A stretch of DNA of 64,000 bases from Natronococcus sp. AD-5 (GTDB lineage Archaea > Halobacteriota > Halobacteria > Halobacteriales > Natrialbaceae): NCBI RefSeq assembly GCF_030734285.1, contig NZ_CP132294.1, forward strand, positions 372,001 through 436,000. Direction: 5' to 3'. A program made the translations under genes and the position numbers. This document shows positions 2,354 to 21,154 of this stretch, piece by piece (within the stretch, counting starts at the first letter, position 1; the number at the start of each line of letters is the position of its first letter). Under the pieces are notes generated by a model that worked only from the letters and a program-made list of their open reading frames with translations, was not told the origin of the DNA and made no database searches.

Positions 2354-2752
2354 TCAATCGCCGGCCGGTCCGTCGTCGACCGCGACGAGGTCGTGAGACC
2401 GCTCGAGATCCCCGAACTCGGTGGGCTCGTTTCCGTCGTCTTCTCCGGCCACGACGTCGTAAAATTCGATCCGAGACCGGTTCCACGATCCGGCCTCGAT
2501 TTCCTCTGCGGCGATGACCCCCTCCCGACCGGGGAGGTCGAATCGATCGACCGTCCGTTCGCTCGCCGCGACGGCGTAGCGCAGGCTGCCACCCTCGACG
2601 TCGTCGTTGGCCGAGCGCGGGAGGTGAAGCGGTCTGATGATCGAGGCGGACAGTTCCGTCTCGTCGTCGACGTAGAGCACGACCTCGTCGCCGTCGGTTT
2701 TCTTGAGCAACTGTTCTGCAATTTCGTTCGGATCTTGTTTTTCGACCGTCAT
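2354..2752 (-). CDS. Conserved hypothetical haloarchaeal protein
   Basis: A 132-residue strongly acidic soluble protein with no membrane segment or signal peptide. The N-terminal half (NEIAEQLLKKTDGDEVVLYVDDETELSASIIRP) looks like a compact alpha/beta fold. The C-terminal tail is Asp/Glu-rich. It lies 44 nt downstream of the sulfonucleotide-reductase-like gene on the same strand, so the two are probably cotranscribed, which weakly suggests a shared process. I do not recognise the family. Confidence 0.7.
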   Translation of the reverse strand: MTVEKQDPNEIAEQLLKKTDGDEVVLYVDDETELSASIIRPLHLPRSANDDVEGGSLRYAVAASERTVDRFDLPGREGVIAAEEIEAGSWNRSRIEFYDVVAGEDDGNEPTEFGDLERSHDLVAVDDGPAGD

Positions 2753-2796
2753 AGTGGTGTTACGACCGGTATCGTGGACTTCTCGCTGCTCGATTC

Positions 2797-3513
2797 TCAG
2801 TCGTCAGCCTCTTGCGCTTCGTCGCCGACCCGGCGGATGCTGTCGTAGGCGAAGAGGGCGTCACCGTCGAGCGTGCACTGCTTACATCCGAGACACTCGA
2901 ACCCTTCGTCGTAGAGTTCGTTGTGGGTGATTTCGCGGCGGTCGTGGTACTCCCAGACGTCCTCCGCCGTCCAGTGGACGATCGGGTTGATCCGGACGAC
3001 CTCGTCTTTCTGTTCGAAGAAGTCGAGGTTTTTCCGCCATTCGTAGCTCCGATCGCCGTCACCGTCGTCGTCGAGGCCCTCGTCGATCCGATACCCCGTG
3101 ATCCAGCCGTCGTGGCCGTCGATCATTCGCTCCATCGGGGCCGATTTGAGGGTCTGACAGCAGAGATCCGGCTTCCGCTGGTTCACCCGCGGGCCGTGTT
3201 CCGAGACGAGTTCTTCGTAGCTCGAGTCGGGCTCGTACGTCTCGAACGCGACGTCGTAGTCGCTCTCGAGTTCCTCCTTTATCTCCCAGGTCGCCTCGAA
3301 GTGGTTGCCGTGGTCGAGAAAGGAAAGCGCCGTCTGGGCCTCGACGTCGGCGGTCGATCTATCGATGAGATCGAGGACGACGTTCGAGTCCTTTCCGAAA
3401 CTACAGGTGAACACGGGCGCGTCGAATCGATCCCACGTTTCCTCGAGCACGTCGAGCGATTTGTCGATCTTTTCGTCGAGAGTGGCGGATTCGATTTCGA
3501 TTTCGGTTGACAT
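2797..3513 (-). CDS. PAPS/APS reductase-family protein with CC and CxxC cysteines
   Basis: A 238-residue member of the PP-loop sulfonucleotide reductase/PAPS sulfotransferase-like superfamily. The nucleotide-binding loop reads FTCSFGKDSNVVLDL (residues about 34-48). A CC pair (LCCQTLK) and a CLGCKQC cluster near the C-terminus resemble the CC/CxxC ligands that hold a [4Fe-4S] cluster in APS reductases. The catalytic C-terminal ECGLH motif of true reductases is absent. It may therefore be a sulfur-transfer, thiolation or adenylyl-sulfate-handling enzyme rather than assimilatory CysH. It is followed by the 132-residue hypothetical gene in a probable two-gene operon. Its start is preceded by a 224-nt gap shared with the divergent FAD oxidoreductase. 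Confidence 0.85.
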   Translation of the reverse strand: MSTEIEIESATLDEKIDKSLDVLEETWDRFDAPVFTCSFGKDSNVVLDLIDRSTADVEAQTALSFLDHGNHFEATWEIKEELESDYDVAFETYEPDSSYEELVSEHGPRVNQRKPDLCCQTLKSAPMERMIDGHDGWITGYRIDEGLDDDGDGDRSYEWRKNLDFFEQKDEVVRINPIVHWTAEDVWEYHDRREITHNELYDEGFECLGCKQCTLDGDALFAYDSIRRVGDEAQEADD

Positions 3514-16194: not shown

Positions 16195-17289
16195 ATGGGT
16201 GACTTTGACTTACAAAATCCGGGCGGCCGGATAGAGGCCTTGCGGCGGATGGTAACGATTCGCGCGTTCGACGAGGAGGCGGGCGACCGATTCGCGGACG
16301 GCGAGATTCCGGGATTCGTCCACCTCTACATCGGAGAGGAGGCGGTCGGCGTCGGGACCTGCGCGGCGCTCGAGGACGACGATTACATCGCGAGCACCCA
16401 CCGCGGCCACGGCCACTGCATCGCGAAGGGCCTGGATCCGAAGTACATGATGGCCGAACTGTACGGCAAGGCCGAGGGCTACTGCAACGGGAAAGGCGGC
16501 TCGATGCACATCGCCGACGTCGACGCCGGAATGCTCGGCGCGAACGGGATCGTCGGCGCCGGACCGCCGCTCGCGACCGGCGCGGCGCTGTCGATCGACT
16601 ACCAGGATCGCGACCAGGTCGCCGTCGGCTTCCTCGGCGACGGCGCCGTCGCGCAGGGACAGGTTCACGAGGCCGTCAACCTCGCGGCGACCTGGGACCT
16701 GCCGGCGATCTTCGTCGTCGAGAACAACCAGTACGGCGAGGCGACGCCGATGGAGAAACAGCACAACGTCGACAACCTGAGCGACACCGCACAGGCCCAC
16801 GACATTCCGGGGTTGACCGTCGACGGCATGGACGTTACCGCGGTCGCGGAGGCCGTCGCCGAGGCTCGAGAGCGCGCCACCGCCGGCGGAGGACCGACGC
16901 TCGTCGAGGCCGAGACGTACCGGTACCGCGGCCACTACGAGGGCGACGAGGAGCCCTACCGGGACGACGAGGAGATCGAGCGCTGGAAGGACCGCGACGC
17001 GATCGCGGCGTTCAAACGGCGGCTGATCGAGCGGGGCGAACTGACCGCCGAGGAGTTCGACGACCTCGAGGCCGAGGCCGAGGCCGAAATCGAGGCGGCG
17101 ATCGAGTACGCCCAGGAGGCCGACGAGCCGACCCCTGACGAAGCGTACGACGATATGTTCGCCGAGACGCCGCCGGAGATCGAACGGTTCGCGACGGCCG
17201 CCCGGACGGACGGTGGTGAGCGAATCGGAGGTTCGCGATCCTCGTCGGAGCGCAGCTCCGACGGCGGCCGCCCCGGAGGTGAGCGATAA
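16195..17289 (+). CDS. TPP-dependent 2-oxoacid/acetoin dehydrogenase E1 alpha subunit
   Basis: A 364-residue alpha subunit of a branched-chain/acetoin-type dehydrogenase complex, which decarboxylates the substrate on thiamine diphosphate. STHRGHGHCIAKG, GKGGSMHI (99-106), GDGAVAQG (148-155) and NNQYGEATP (177-185) give the TPP/Mg site. It is closest in feel to acetoin or pyruvate-type E1. The last 21 residues (starting IGGSRSSSERSS) are encoded by an apparent 63-bp insertion between 9-bp repeats; without it the protein would end RTDGGER. The stop overlaps the ATG of the beta-subunit gene by one base, indicating coupled translation. Confidence 0.92.
   Translation: MGDFDLQNPGGRIEALRRMVTIRAFDEEAGDRFADGEIPGFVHLYIGEEAVGVGTCAALEDDDYIASTHRGHGHCIAKGLDPKYMMAELYGKAEGYCNGKGGSMHIADVDAGMLGANGIVGAGPPLATGAALSIDYQDRDQVAVGFLGDGAVAQGQVHEAVNLAATWDLPAIFVVENNQYGEATPMEKQHNVDNLSDTAQAHDIPGLTVDGMDVTAVAEAVAEARERATAGGGPTLVEAETYRYRGHYEGDEEPYRDDEEIERWKDRDAIAAFKRRLIERGELTAEEFDDLEAEAEAEIEAAIEYAQEADEPTPDEAYDDMFAETPPEIERFATAARTDGGERIGGSRSSSERSSDGGRPGGER
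17215..17286 (+). repeat. 63-bp in-frame insertion bounded by 9-bp direct repeats
   Basis: GGTGAGCGA occurs at 17215-17223 and again at 17278-17286 (12 nt each with one mismatch if extended leftward). The 63-bp period keeps the E1 alpha frame and recreates its stop codon. The inserted part holds an 8-bp palindrome GTCGGAGC-GCA-GCTCCGAC (17244-17262). The right copy also contains the GGAGGTGA ribosome-binding sequence of the next gene. Confidence 0.7.
17275..17282 (+). promoter_or_regulatory. Strong Shine-Dalgarno GGAGGTGA for the E1 beta gene
   Basis: A near-perfect anti-16S-complementary sequence ends 6 nt before the ATG at 17289, inside the end of the alpha gene. It supports re-initiation at the overlapping start. 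Confidence 0.7.
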
Positions 17290-18296
17290 TGACCGCACAG
17301 ACCGAAGCCGAACTCGAGACCGAAACCGAGACGATGACCGTCCGGGAGGCCATTCGGCGGGCCCTCCGCGAGGAACTCGACCGCGACGAGGACGTCTACC
17401 TGATGGGCGAGGACGTCGGCCTGTTCGGCGGCGTCCTCGAGGTCACGGGCGGACTCTACGAGGAGTTCGGCGAGGAGCGCGTCCGGGACACGCCGATCAG
17501 CGAAGCCGGCTTCGTGGGCGCGGCGACGGGCGCGGCGGCGACCGGCACCCGTCCGGTCGTCGAGCTCATGTTCTCGGACTTCGCCGGCGTCTCGATGGAG
17601 CAGATCATGAACCAGATGGCGAAGATGCGCTACATGTTCGGCGGGAAAGCCGAGATGCCCGTAACGGTTCGCACGACGGAGGGCGGCGGGATGGGCGCCG
17701 CGAGCCAGCACTCGGGGACGATCCACACCTGGATCGGCCACTTCCCCGGCCTGAAGGCCGTCGCGCCCGGCACCGCCGCGAGCGCGAAAGGGTTGACGAA
17801 GGCCGCCATCCGCTCGGACGATCCCGTCTTCGTCTTCGAGAACAAGATGATCTACGAGCAGAAGGGTGCAGTACCGACCGACGAGGAGTTCACCGTCCCG
17901 ATCGGCGAGGCCGCGATCGAGCGAGAGGGCGAGGACGCCACCGTCGTCGCGACCCAGCGCCTCGTCGGGGAGTCCCTGCAGACCGCCGAGAGCCTGGCCG
18001 ACGACGTGGACGTCGAAGTGATCGACGCCCGTTCGCTGTACCCGCTCGACACCGAGACGATCGTCGAGAGCGTCAGGAAAACCGGTCGCCTCATCGTCGC
18101 CGACGAGAGCCCGCTCTCGTACGGAACGCACGCCGAGATCGTCGCTCGCGTCCAGGAGGAGGCGTTCTTCAGCCTCGACGCGCCCATCCAGCGCGTCGGC
18201 ACGCCCGACACGCACGTCCCGTTCAGCCCGCCGCTCGAGCGGGAGGTCCTGCCCGACGGCGACGACGTCCGCGAAGCGGTCGAGCGAGTGACCTAA
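17289..18296 (+). CDS. TPP-dependent 2-oxoacid/acetoin dehydrogenase E1 beta subunit
   Basis: A 335-residue beta subunit that pairs with the upstream alpha subunit. The N-terminal pyrimidine-binding domain includes MGEDVGLFGGVLEVTGGLYEEFG and DTPISEAGFVGAATGAA, and the C-terminal transketolase domain includes VIDARSLYPLDTETIVESVRKTGRL. All conserved segments are present. The start overlaps the alpha stop by one base, and an acoX-like gene starts 4 nt after its stop, giving a three-gene operon. Confidence 0.93.
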   Translation: MTAQTEAELETETETMTVREAIRRALREELDRDEDVYLMGEDVGLFGGVLEVTGGLYEEFGEERVRDTPISEAGFVGAATGAAATGTRPVVELMFSDFAGVSMEQIMNQMAKMRYMFGGKAEMPVTVRTTEGGGMGAASQHSGTIHTWIGHFPGLKAVAPGTAASAKGLTKAAIRSDDPVFVFENKMIYEQKGAVPTDEEFTVPIGEAAIEREGEDATVVATQRLVGESLQTAESLADDVDVEVIDARSLYPLDTETIVESVRKTGRLIVADESPLSYGTHAEIVARVQEEAFFSLDAPIQRVGTPDTHVPFSPPLEREVLPDGDDVREAVERVT

Positions 18297-18299
18297 CTC

Positions 18300-19328
18300 G
18301 TGGCGCGCGTCGGACTGATCGGCAATCCCGCCGCCGGCCGCGACGTCCGCCGCCTCACCGGCGGTGCCAGCGTCGTCGACAACTACGCGAAGCGCCGGGT
18401 CGCGGAGTGCGTCCTCGCCGGGCTGACGGCGGTGACCGACCCGCCGGACGTGCGGGTCATGCCGGATCGAGCCGGAATCGCCGAGCACGCACGCGACGAA
18501 TCGCCGGAGGCGGTCGACGTGACGGTTCTCGAGATGCCGGCCGAGGGGTCGGCGGACGACACGCGACGGGCGGCCGCGCGGTTTCGCGAGGACGACGACG
18601 TCGCGGCCGTCGTCGTTCTCGGCGGGGACGGCACGACCCGCGACGTCGCGTGCGAGATCGGCGACGTTCCGATCGTCGCCGTTTCCACCGGAACGAACAA
18701 CGTCGTCCCGTCGGCCGTCGACGGGACCGTCGCGGGGGTCGCCGCGGCGCTCGTCGCGACGGGCGCCGCGGCGCCGAACGAAGCGATCGCTCGACACGGG
18801 ATGGTCGAAGCGCGAGCCGAGACGGCGACCGGCGAACGACGGCTGTCGGCGCTCGCGGCCGCCGAACTCTCCTCGCGCTCGTTCGTCGGGACGCGGGCGT
18901 TGCTCGATCCGGGAGACCTGCGCGGCGGCGTCGTCTCGCGGGCCCACCCGGGGGACGTCGGTCTCGCCGCCGTCGCCGGCGCGGTCGAGAACGTCGCGCC
19001 CGACGATCCCGGCGGCATCGCGCTCCGGCTGGCCGACCCCGCCGGCGCCTCGCGGACCGTCCGGGCGGTTCTCGCCCCGGGCGTCACCGCGCCCGTCGGG
19101 ATCGCGTCGATCGAGCGCCTCGAGTGGAACGATCCCGTTCGGTTCGACGTTGCGGACGGCGTCGTCGGCGCCGACGGCGAGCGCGAACTCGAACTCACGG
19201 ATGCGACGGTCGAAATGCGGGTGATCCCCGATGGCCCCCGTCTCGTCGACGTCGACGCGGCGCTCAAGGCCGGAGCCGACGCCGGCGCGCTCGAGCGGAC
19301 CGATCGGCTGCCGGCGACCGAGGACTGA
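18300..19328 (+). CDS. AcoX-like NAD-kinase-fold protein
   Basis: A 342-residue protein of the ATP-NAD kinase/AcoX family. It opens with GLIGNPAAGRDVRRLTGG and carries the LGGDGT signature (107-112) and STGTNN (129-134), the nucleotide-binding elements of NAD kinases. In bacterial acetoin operons AcoX sits beside the E1 genes, and this gene occupies the same position with a GTG start 4 nt after the beta stop. Its reaction is not established. A longer paralogue lies at 36291-37394. Confidence 0.87.
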   Translation: MARVGLIGNPAAGRDVRRLTGGASVVDNYAKRRVAECVLAGLTAVTDPPDVRVMPDRAGIAEHARDESPEAVDVTVLEMPAEGSADDTRRAAARFREDDDVAAVVVLGGDGTTRDVACEIGDVPIVAVSTGTNNVVPSAVDGTVAGVAAALVATGAAAPNEAIARHGMVEARAETATGERRLSALAAAELSSRSFVGTRALLDPGDLRGGVVSRAHPGDVGLAAVAGAVENVAPDDPGGIALRLADPAGASRTVRAVLAPGVTAPVGIASIERLEWNDPVRFDVADGVVGADGERELELTDATVEMRVIPDGPRLVDVDAALKAGADAGALERTDRLPATED

Positions 19329-19348: not shown

Positions 19349-21154
19349 TCAGGCCCGCATCCAGGAGACCTCGACGGGCAGATCGTCCCGGAGCAACTGC
19401 GAGACGTGACAGCCCCGCTCGCCGAGGTCGACGATGCGCTCTACCGTCTCGTCGTCGGCGTCCGTCTCGAGTCGGACCGTCGCCTCGACGCGCTCGACCG
19501 AGCCGCGGTCGGGGTCCGCGTCGGTCGTGACGTCGATCGCGTCGACCGAGGCGTCGCGCTTGTCCGCCTGGAACCGAACGCTCAGCGAGAGACACGACGC
19601 GAGGGCGCCGAGGAAGACGTCGACCGGGGTCGGACCCGTCTCCGAGCCCCCGGCGTCCTCGGGTTCGTCGAACGACCACTCGAACGAGCCGGCTTCGATC
19701 GTCCCCGCCATTCCGTCGGGGTTGTGTGCGGTGACGGTTCGGTCCGGCATTTCGGTGGCGGTTCCCGATTTCTCGCCGCTCTCGCGGCCGATCTCGTCCG
19801 GAAGCAGCGGCCACGGATCCTCGAGGTGATCGACCAGAGTCGCGAGGAACCTGGCGGCGTCGGCCCCGTCGACGACGCGGTGATCGAAGGAGAGGTCGAG
19901 CGGGAGCCGTCGCCGCCACTCGATCTCGTCGCTCGTACCCCTGACGGGCGCCTCCGCGACGGCGTCGACGCCGAGGATGGCGACCTGCGGCGGATTGATG
20001 ATCGGATCGAACGATTCGACCCCGAGGACGCCGAGGTTCGTCACCGTGAACGTCCCGCCCTGCAAGTGGTCCATCGTGTACTCGCCCTCGGTCGCCGACC
20101 GAACGAGCTCGCGGCGTTCGGTCGCGATCGTCTCGAGCGACTTGCCGCCGACGTCCCGGAGCACGGGCGCGATGAGTCCCTGGTCGATATCCACGGCGAC
20201 GCCGACGTTGTGTTCCGCCCAGAGACGGTGAACCTCGTCCTCGAACGTCGCGTTGAACGCGGGGTGCTCCTCGAGCGTCGCGGACGCCGCGAGCAAGAGC
20301 ACGTCCTGGACGGAGACGTCGGTCTCGAGGGTAGCGTCCGCGGCGTCGGCGGCGTCGAGCAAGCCCTCGGCGTCGGCTTCGCGGTGCACCGTTACGTGGA
20401 CGGCCTCCCGGTAACTCTCGCCGAGCCTGGAAGCGATCGTCCGCCGCATCCCGTCGAAGGGGCGCTCTTCGGCGAGGGCGCGCCCGGAATCGTCCGCCGA
20501 TTCCGCCGCGTCCTCGACGTCGTCCTCGGTGATCGACCCCTGATACCCCGTCCCTTCGACGGCCGCGAGGTCGACGCCGATCTCCGCAGCTCGCTTTCGA
20601 GCCCGGGGAGAGGCGTCGACGTCCGCTTCCCGCCGCTCGCTCCCGTCGGACTCGGCCGCCGTCTCGACGTCGTCTTCGGTAATCGCTCCGTCGTAGCCGG
20701 TCCCCTCGACGGTCGCGAGATCGACGCCGAGTTCCTCGGCGCGCTTTCGCGCCCGCGGGGAGATCTTGCGATCGTCGGTAGTCGATCGTGATTCGGTTCT
20801 ATCCCGGGTGTCGGCGACTGCCGCGTCCGTTCCGTCGTCGGCCGCCGCTCCGTCCGACTCGTCCGCACTGTCGAGGCCCGCCTTCGCCTCCGACTCGAGT
20901 TCGTCGATGTCGGCGTCGGCGGGGGCGACGATACCGATCGGCGTTCCCGGCGGTACGGACTCGCCTTCCTCGAGATAGGTTCGCCGGAGGACGCCGTTCT
21001 CTCGGGCCTCGAGCTCGGCGACGCTCTTCTCGGACTCGACCTCGGCGACGACTTCCCCTTCTTCGATCGTGGCTCCCTCGTCGATCGTCCACTCCAGTAA
21101 TTCCCCGCGTTCCATTTCCAGTCCGAGCTTCGGCATCCTGACAACGTATCCCAT
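19349..21154 (-). CDS. Dihydrolipoamide acyltransferase (E2) fused to an OsmC domain
   Basis: A 601-residue fusion. Residues 1-78 form a lipoyl domain (lipoyl Lys43 in ESEKS). Two tandem peripheral-subunit-binding domains follow (about 128-168 and 178-217; SPRARKRAEELGVDLATVEG and SPRARKRAAEIGVDLAAVEG). The acyltransferase core (about 235-460) has the catalytic SFDHRVVDGADAARF. The C-terminal 130 residues are an OsmC/Ohr-like domain with cysteines in GALASCLSLSV and ERGCHVSQLL, the peroxidatic pair of that fold. E2 should accept acyl groups from the convergent E1 proteins. No E3 is nearby. The ATG at 21154 is chosen because it begins the lipoyl domain; the frame continues upstream. Confidence 0.92.
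   Translation of the reverse strand: MGYVVRMPKLGLEMERGELLEWTIDEGATIEEGEVVAEVESEKSVAELEARENGVLRRTYLEEGESVPPGTPIGIVAPADADIDELESEAKAGLDSADESDGAAADDGTDAAVADTRDRTESRSTTDDRKISPRARKRAEELGVDLATVEGTGYDGAITEDDVETAAESDGSERREADVDASPRARKRAAEIGVDLAAVEGTGYQGSITEDDVEDAAESADDSGRALAEERPFDGMRRTIASRLGESYREAVHVTVHREADAEGLLDAADAADATLETDVSVQDVLLLAASATLEEHPAFNATFEDEVHRLWAEHNVGVAVDIDQGLIAPVLRDVGGKSLETIATERRELVRSATEGEYTMDHLQGGTFTVTNLGVLGVESFDPIINPPQVAILGVDAVAEAPVRGTSDEIEWRRRLPLDLSFDHRVVDGADAARFLATLVDHLEDPWPLLPDEIGRESGEKSGTATEMPDRTVTAHNPDGMAGTIEAGSFEWSFDEPEDAGGSETGPTPVDVFLGALASCLSLSVRFQADKRDASVDAIDVTTDADPDRGSVERVEATVRLETDADDETVERIVDLGERGCHVSQLLRDDLPVEVSWMRA

Follow-up and report, generated by a model that had tools for sequence, protein, structure and literature searches.

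A conserved fusion of a lipoyl E2 acyltransferase with a YhfA-like OsmC domain at acetoin-dehydrogenase-like loci of Halobacteria

In the window, the whole stretch of 64,000 nucleotides from Natronococcus sp. AD-5 that was analysed here, a lipoyl E2 acyltransferase is continued at its C-terminus by an OsmC domain, and at least 33 of the 292 Halobacteria genomes compared have a reading frame that likewise carries both an E2 core and OsmC, a minimum figure, as the count covers only the stronger matches; this is the comparison of haloarchaeal E2 genes that an earlier, sequence-only reading of this DNA had proposed. The product, P0001, may serve an acetoin-dehydrogenase-like complex as a functional E2 subunit that bears, attached to its C-terminus, an OsmC domain of the YhfA class, a reading that, taken jointly with the mechanism proposed below, has about an even chance of being right. 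The open reading frames of the window give a single frame of 601 aa (21154..19349, minus strand) with neither stop nor frameshift, and OsmC thus continues the E2 frame as the sequence-only reading had claimed. The features of the locus, in coordinates of the window, are as follows.

16195..17289, plus strand: E1 alpha of a 2-oxoacid/acetoin dehydrogenase (Pfam PF00676), conserved neighbour
17289..18296, plus strand: E1 beta (Pfam PF02779/PF02780), conserved neighbour
18300..19328, plus strand: AcoX-like NAD-kinase-fold protein (Pfam PF01513), convergent with the E2 gene
19349..21154, minus strand: E2-OsmC fusion gene P0001, 601 aa
20933..21142, minus strand: lipoyl domain, residues 5-74 (Pfam PF00364, Biotin_lipoyl, E 1.3e-13)
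21026-21028, minus strand: lipoyl-lysine K43 in the motif ESEKS, within the lipoyl domain PF00364
20657..20764, minus strand: E3-binding domain 1, residues 131-166 (Pfam PF02817)
20507..20614, minus strand: E3-binding domain 2, residues 181-216 (Pfam PF02817)
19805..20470, minus strand: acyltransferase catalytic core, residues 229-450 (Pfam PF00198, 2-oxoacid_dh, E 3e-66)
19880-19882, minus strand: H425 in the core motif DHRVVDG, which fits DHxxxDG of 2-oxoacid dehydrogenase E2
19739..19804, minus strand: linker joining the E2 core to OsmC, of low conservation (dN/dS mostly 0.2-1.1)
19748-19750, minus strand: internal ATG, M469, at the start of the OsmC domain, invariant only in the window's clade
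19352..19738, minus strand: OsmC domain, residues 473-601 (Pfam 503-596), PF02566 plus fold match to OsmC/Ohr structures
19592-19594, minus strand: C521 (ALASC) of the OsmC domain
19409-19411, minus strand: C582 (ERGC) of the OsmC domain

All Pfam domains of P0001 score above their cut-offs, and the sequence carries the marks of an E2, namely a lipoyl domain with its acceptor lysine, an E3-binding domain (PF02817, matched as two stretches, E 1.5e-26) and a DHxxxDG core. The Pfam match to OsmC falls at 503-596 (E 7.4e-17; score 62.1 bits, cut-off 27.5), within the part, residues about 470-601, for which the sequence-only reading had suggested a domain search. The ATG of M469 may be left over from a once separate gene, or may serve as an internal start; at its position the other lineages have no ATG, GTG or TTG, and an internal start yielding a free OsmC protein is a weak candidate, the ATG being confined to the window's clade.

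The 292 genomes were searched with the OsmC domain, and about 16 kb was read around each place of the high-scoring clade. The window's own family holds 22 of the 33 fusions and the remainder is spread across three other family codes; the full-length architecture also occurs in five named records, and Natronococcus pandeyae and Natronorubrum species are among the named relatives. All 46 aligned homologues have both OsmC cysteines without exception, so that the pair noted earlier as kept in the window has been lost in none of them. The E2 catalytic motif is retained across the fusions (one reads DHRVVNG), and the lipoyl-lysine is present in the full-length fusions, with L078, a locus without E1, as the sole exception. 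The dN/dS of the OsmC part is 0.08-0.19 against 0.08-0.20 for the E2 core (Nei-Gojobori, nine close pairs), the linkers being mostly higher; the two parts are under similar purifying selection, and since the low ratio of the fused OsmC is like that of the E2 core, the domain is maintained and is no read-through accident. A sequencing or frameshift artefact, or chance, is ruled out by this selection together with the recurrence in other genomes.

The fusion usually lies beside genes for E1alpha, E1beta and an AcoX-like protein, the set that encodes acetoin dehydrogenase in bacteria. The cassette is called acetoin-dehydrogenase-like because the bacterial AcoX homologue heads an acoX-A-B-C cluster, its neighbours being E1alpha, E1beta and an E2 annotated as that of acetoin dehydrogenase. 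The likeness to the acetoin dehydrogenase system (AcoX, AcoA, AcoB, AcoC), in which E1alpha, E1beta, AcoX-like and lipoyl E2 genes stand side by side, is one of gene content. The fusion gene is oriented opposite to the E1 genes, and Paraburkholderia AcoC consists of a lipoyl domain and an alpha/beta hydrolase, whereas the haloarchaeal fusion consists of a classical E2 core and OsmC. In Haloferax volcanii most such complexes are without an identified substrate (PMC8305020). AcoX was detected in 54 of the 292 genomes (a 55th has broken pieces only), and it is carried by 27 of the 33 fusion genomes versus 27 of the 259 without the fusion; conversely, the fusion occurs in 27 of the 54 AcoX genomes versus 6 of the 238 without AcoX (Fisher p ~1e-17, relatedness not corrected for). 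The fusions of L069, L085 and L086 are accompanied by other or more distant E1 genes.

For the classification of locus variants, 55 E1beta+AcoX loci were used, and five further AcoX loci without OsmC were left out. The E2-OsmC fusion is present in 31 of the 55, an intact E2 without OsmC in nine, an E2 with a degenerate core and no OsmC in 12, and a degenerate E2 with a standalone OsmC in three; in the Haloterrigena salina group (L046, L054, L055) the locus has a standalone OsmC that belongs to the fusion clade. In the E1beta+AcoX tree the fusion is found on either side of the deepest split, and it is therefore old or moved as a unit, a tree of this kind being unable to tell gain from loss. The tandem E3-binding domains, which in the sequence-only reading could attach extra E3, are not tied to OsmC: E2s without OsmC at the same locus have them too, three in number. 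In the degenerate E2s (L102-L112, L114, L046, L054, L055) the DHRxxDG transacylase motif is replaced (YDTRAI..), and an Abhydrolase_3 gene is found wherever the E2 is degenerate (15 of 15) and at none of the 40 loci whose E2 is intact, relatedness not being corrected for; at these loci the alpha/beta hydrolase may take over the acyl step.

High peroxidase reactivity of Ohr requires Arg19 and Glu51 (PMC5962072). In the window the positions of the peroxidatic and resolving cysteines of Ohr are occupied (C521, C582); the Ohr Glu position Cp-10 (Glu51 of XfOhr) holds Val with an acidic residue adjacent, the Glu is also absent from the other fusion-clade sequences aligned, and the N-terminal loop has, by sequence alignment only, no conserved Arg as counterpart of Arg19. 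The NCBIfam Ohr model TIGR03561 scores 21.1 bits, below its cut-off of 88.85, and the marks of OsmC sensu stricto are absent as well, with TPVD instead of NPEE and a Gly-rich loop that has no conserved Arg; an identity as Ohr or as OsmC sensu stricto is ruled out by the catalytic residues and the model scores. The nearest free-standing haloarchaeal OsmC proteins likewise have no Arg-Glu pair. The YhfA class comprises proteins with both cysteines, no Arg/Glu and no assigned activity (PMC8945050), for which peroxidase activity has not been demonstrated (PMC4069020, PMC8945050). The fused domain resembles this class in having two cysteines without the Arg and Glu, and in the acidic residue at Cp-9, and differs from it in being joined to E2, YhfA proteins being free-standing. 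The earlier term 'peroxidase' was thus an extrapolation, because the Ohr Arg/Glu are absent and the YhfA class is without known activity. The match of the fusion profile to E. coli YhfA is remote (26 bits), and the tree cannot place E. coli YhfA. An AlphaFold model of the OsmC domain (7 sequences; pLDDT 72, N-terminal half poor) has the cysteines on the expected helices and matches OsmC/Ohr structures, with the best E-value for 2onf and the highest TM-score for 1ml8, which we take to be YhfA; the full-length model of P0001 (pLDDT 41) is uninformative.

The persistence of OsmC where other parts of the system are gone is informative as to its reductant. At nine loci (L062, L065, L066, L067, L084, L076, L078, L079, L081) no E1 is detectable within about 8 kb; the lipoyl-lysine is absent in seven of them and kept in L079 and L081, and both OsmC cysteines are kept in all nine. 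In L062, L065, L066, L067 and L084 short proteins join a lysine-less lipoyl fold straight to OsmC, and E1, AcoX, the E3-binding domain and the E2 core are gone (three of the five were scanned with Pfam; the lipoyl fold passes the cut-off in L062 and L084 and falls short of it in L066). In the OsmC tree these five fall inside the fusion clade at at least two places (short alignment, modest support), and loss of lysine and E1 with OsmC kept probably happened more than once. Because lysine-less homologues keep the cysteine pair, the function of OsmC outlasts the loss of its own lipoyl group, and, at least in these lineages, where the lipoyl-lysine is absent, OsmC must be open to reduction in trans as well; since it works there without a lipoyl group of its own, OsmC probably accepts other reductants, including the lipoyl groups of other complexes. 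The seven homologues without lipoyl-lysine that keep the pair also contradict a strictly self-contained lipoamide-driven system, as envisaged earlier, as a general rule. The repeated loss amounts to a natural experiment in which the two functions come apart.

Reduction of Ohr/OsmC by lipoylated E2/E3 (Lpd) is given as established in a passage of PMC8945050 citing Cussiol 2010, a precedent for the electron donors named in the sequence-only reading, and the PDB has Ohr-dihydrolipoamide complexes (6ebg, 6ebd). The lipoyl-dependent Ohr/OsmC peroxidases share with the fused domain the OsmC fold and two cysteines on the same helices, but they are free-standing and have the catalytic Arg and Glu, both missing here. 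Passages of PMC4518038 and PMC10332631 describe a lipoyl-dependent peroxide defence via alpha-ketoacid dehydrogenase components in M. tuberculosis and an OsmC with glycine-cleavage proteins in Trichomonas; the likeness would lie in a peroxide defence driven by a lipoyl protein, there with separate proteins in trans and here in one polypeptide. Contrary to the premise that OsmC is free-standing only, its fusion to another enzyme is already known: alpha/beta-hydrolase/OsmC proteins are annotated in many bacteria, and PDB 9wo1 is a 400-residue chain with OsmC at the C-terminus. They resemble P0001 in carrying a C-terminal OsmC-class domain on another enzyme, but the partner is a hydrolase and no lipoyl E2. 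No description of an E2-OsmC fusion was found in open-access papers, and none was seen among plasmids in the matches listed.

The architecture suggests electron exchange between OsmC and lipoic acid. The fused domain would be an oxidoreductase that works through its cysteine pair, probably as a peroxidase, and that is attached to E2 so as to be reduced by dihydrolipoyl arms, with a reductant in trans also usable. E1 would load acyl groups onto the lipoyl arm and the E2 core would hand them on; the dihydrolipoyl arm would then give up its electrons to E3, whose gene lies elsewhere in the genome, or to the C521-C582 disulfide of OsmC, and the cysteines so reduced would in turn reduce a hydroperoxide or some other substrate that is electrophilic or of disulfide type. 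Domain architecture, conservation, E2 motifs, cysteine pair, OsmC fold and gene neighbourhood are direct observations, from which we infer the lipoyl-to-OsmC electron transfer and its final substrate. The single frame, its recurrence in at least 33 genomes, the AcoX association, the make-up of the bacterial AcoX cluster, the kept E2 motifs and lipoyl-lysine, the invariant cysteines and the equal purifying selection favour this mechanism, as do the OsmC fold match, the Ohr/OsmC precedent in that passage of PMC8945050, and the rest of the source genome, where a lipoamide dehydrogenase (E3) above the NCBIfam cut-off adjoins another E2 and lipoate-protein ligase genes are present. Of the six OsmC matches and four E2 cores in that genome, a combination of the two occurs at the fusion locus only. 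Against it stand the absence of the Ohr Arg/Glu and of demonstrated peroxidase activity in the YhfA class (PMC4069020, PMC8945050), the seven homologues that keep OsmC with the lipoyl-lysine lost, the nine AcoX loci that run on an intact E2 without OsmC, and the only moderate confidence of the OsmC model. More tentatively, the YhfA-class OsmC in E2 might offer the lipoyl arm a second outlet for its electrons, by which the complex could turn over, reducing peroxides or similar compounds, without E3 and NAD+; this would provide the first physiological electron donor for the orphan YhfA class. The fusion offers a concrete hypothesis for a class without assigned activity, and the partnership of Ohr/OsmC with lipoyl E2, known in trans, becomes testable in one polypeptide through a covalent fusion found across several haloarchaeal families.

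The OsmC domain could also be an independent redox enzyme, reduced in trans by the lipoyl groups of other complexes or by the haloarchaeal gamma-glutamylcysteine system, with the fusion serving only co-expression or co-localisation. The cysteine pair kept where E1, AcoX and lipoyl-lysine were lost, probably more than once, and the fusion clade's standalone OsmC in the Haloterrigena salina group point in this direction, but the fusion occurs in many genera and several haloarchaeal families, the lipoyl arm is intact whenever E1 is present, and even the shortened proteins keep the lipoyl fold beside OsmC, and we consider such independence rather unlikely. A structural role, in which an obligate OsmC dimer joins E2 trimers into a larger assembly without redox function, has its attraction in that E2 cores form trimers. 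Since OsmC/Ohr proteins occur as homodimers with intertwined chains (PMC5962072), the geometry of the cage could depend on the fusion; but the cysteines are invariant in all 46 sequences, among them standalone and E2-less forms with no cage to assemble, which makes this improbable. There is likewise little likelihood that the targets of the cysteines, instead of peroxides, lie on the substrate or acyl side, for instance acyl-thioesters or electrophilic products (diketones or aldehydes) of the acetoin-type reaction. The acetoin-type gene set, the fusions of OsmC to alpha/beta hydrolases and the strict association of an alpha/beta hydrolase gene with E2s lacking the transacylase motif would agree with such chemistry, yet the OsmC clade persists without E1 at the locus and without AcoX, a setting in which this chemistry should be missing.

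On a plasmid of Haladaptatus halobius (L149, 6081-8574), a degenerate E2, annotated as an E3-binding domain protein, is followed by an alpha/beta hydrolase, the first case of the pattern common to the degenerate-E2 loci. In L079 (G213), where the E2-OsmC gene is intact, AcoX lies about 4.6 kb away from it in overlapping broken pieces (2458-3395), and its fragmentation indicates that the locus is decaying. The source genome itself contains a fragment of a fusion-clade OsmC (L083, C1:3945586-3945846), 64-68% identical, with the start missing and an in-frame TAG, which is a probable pseudogene.
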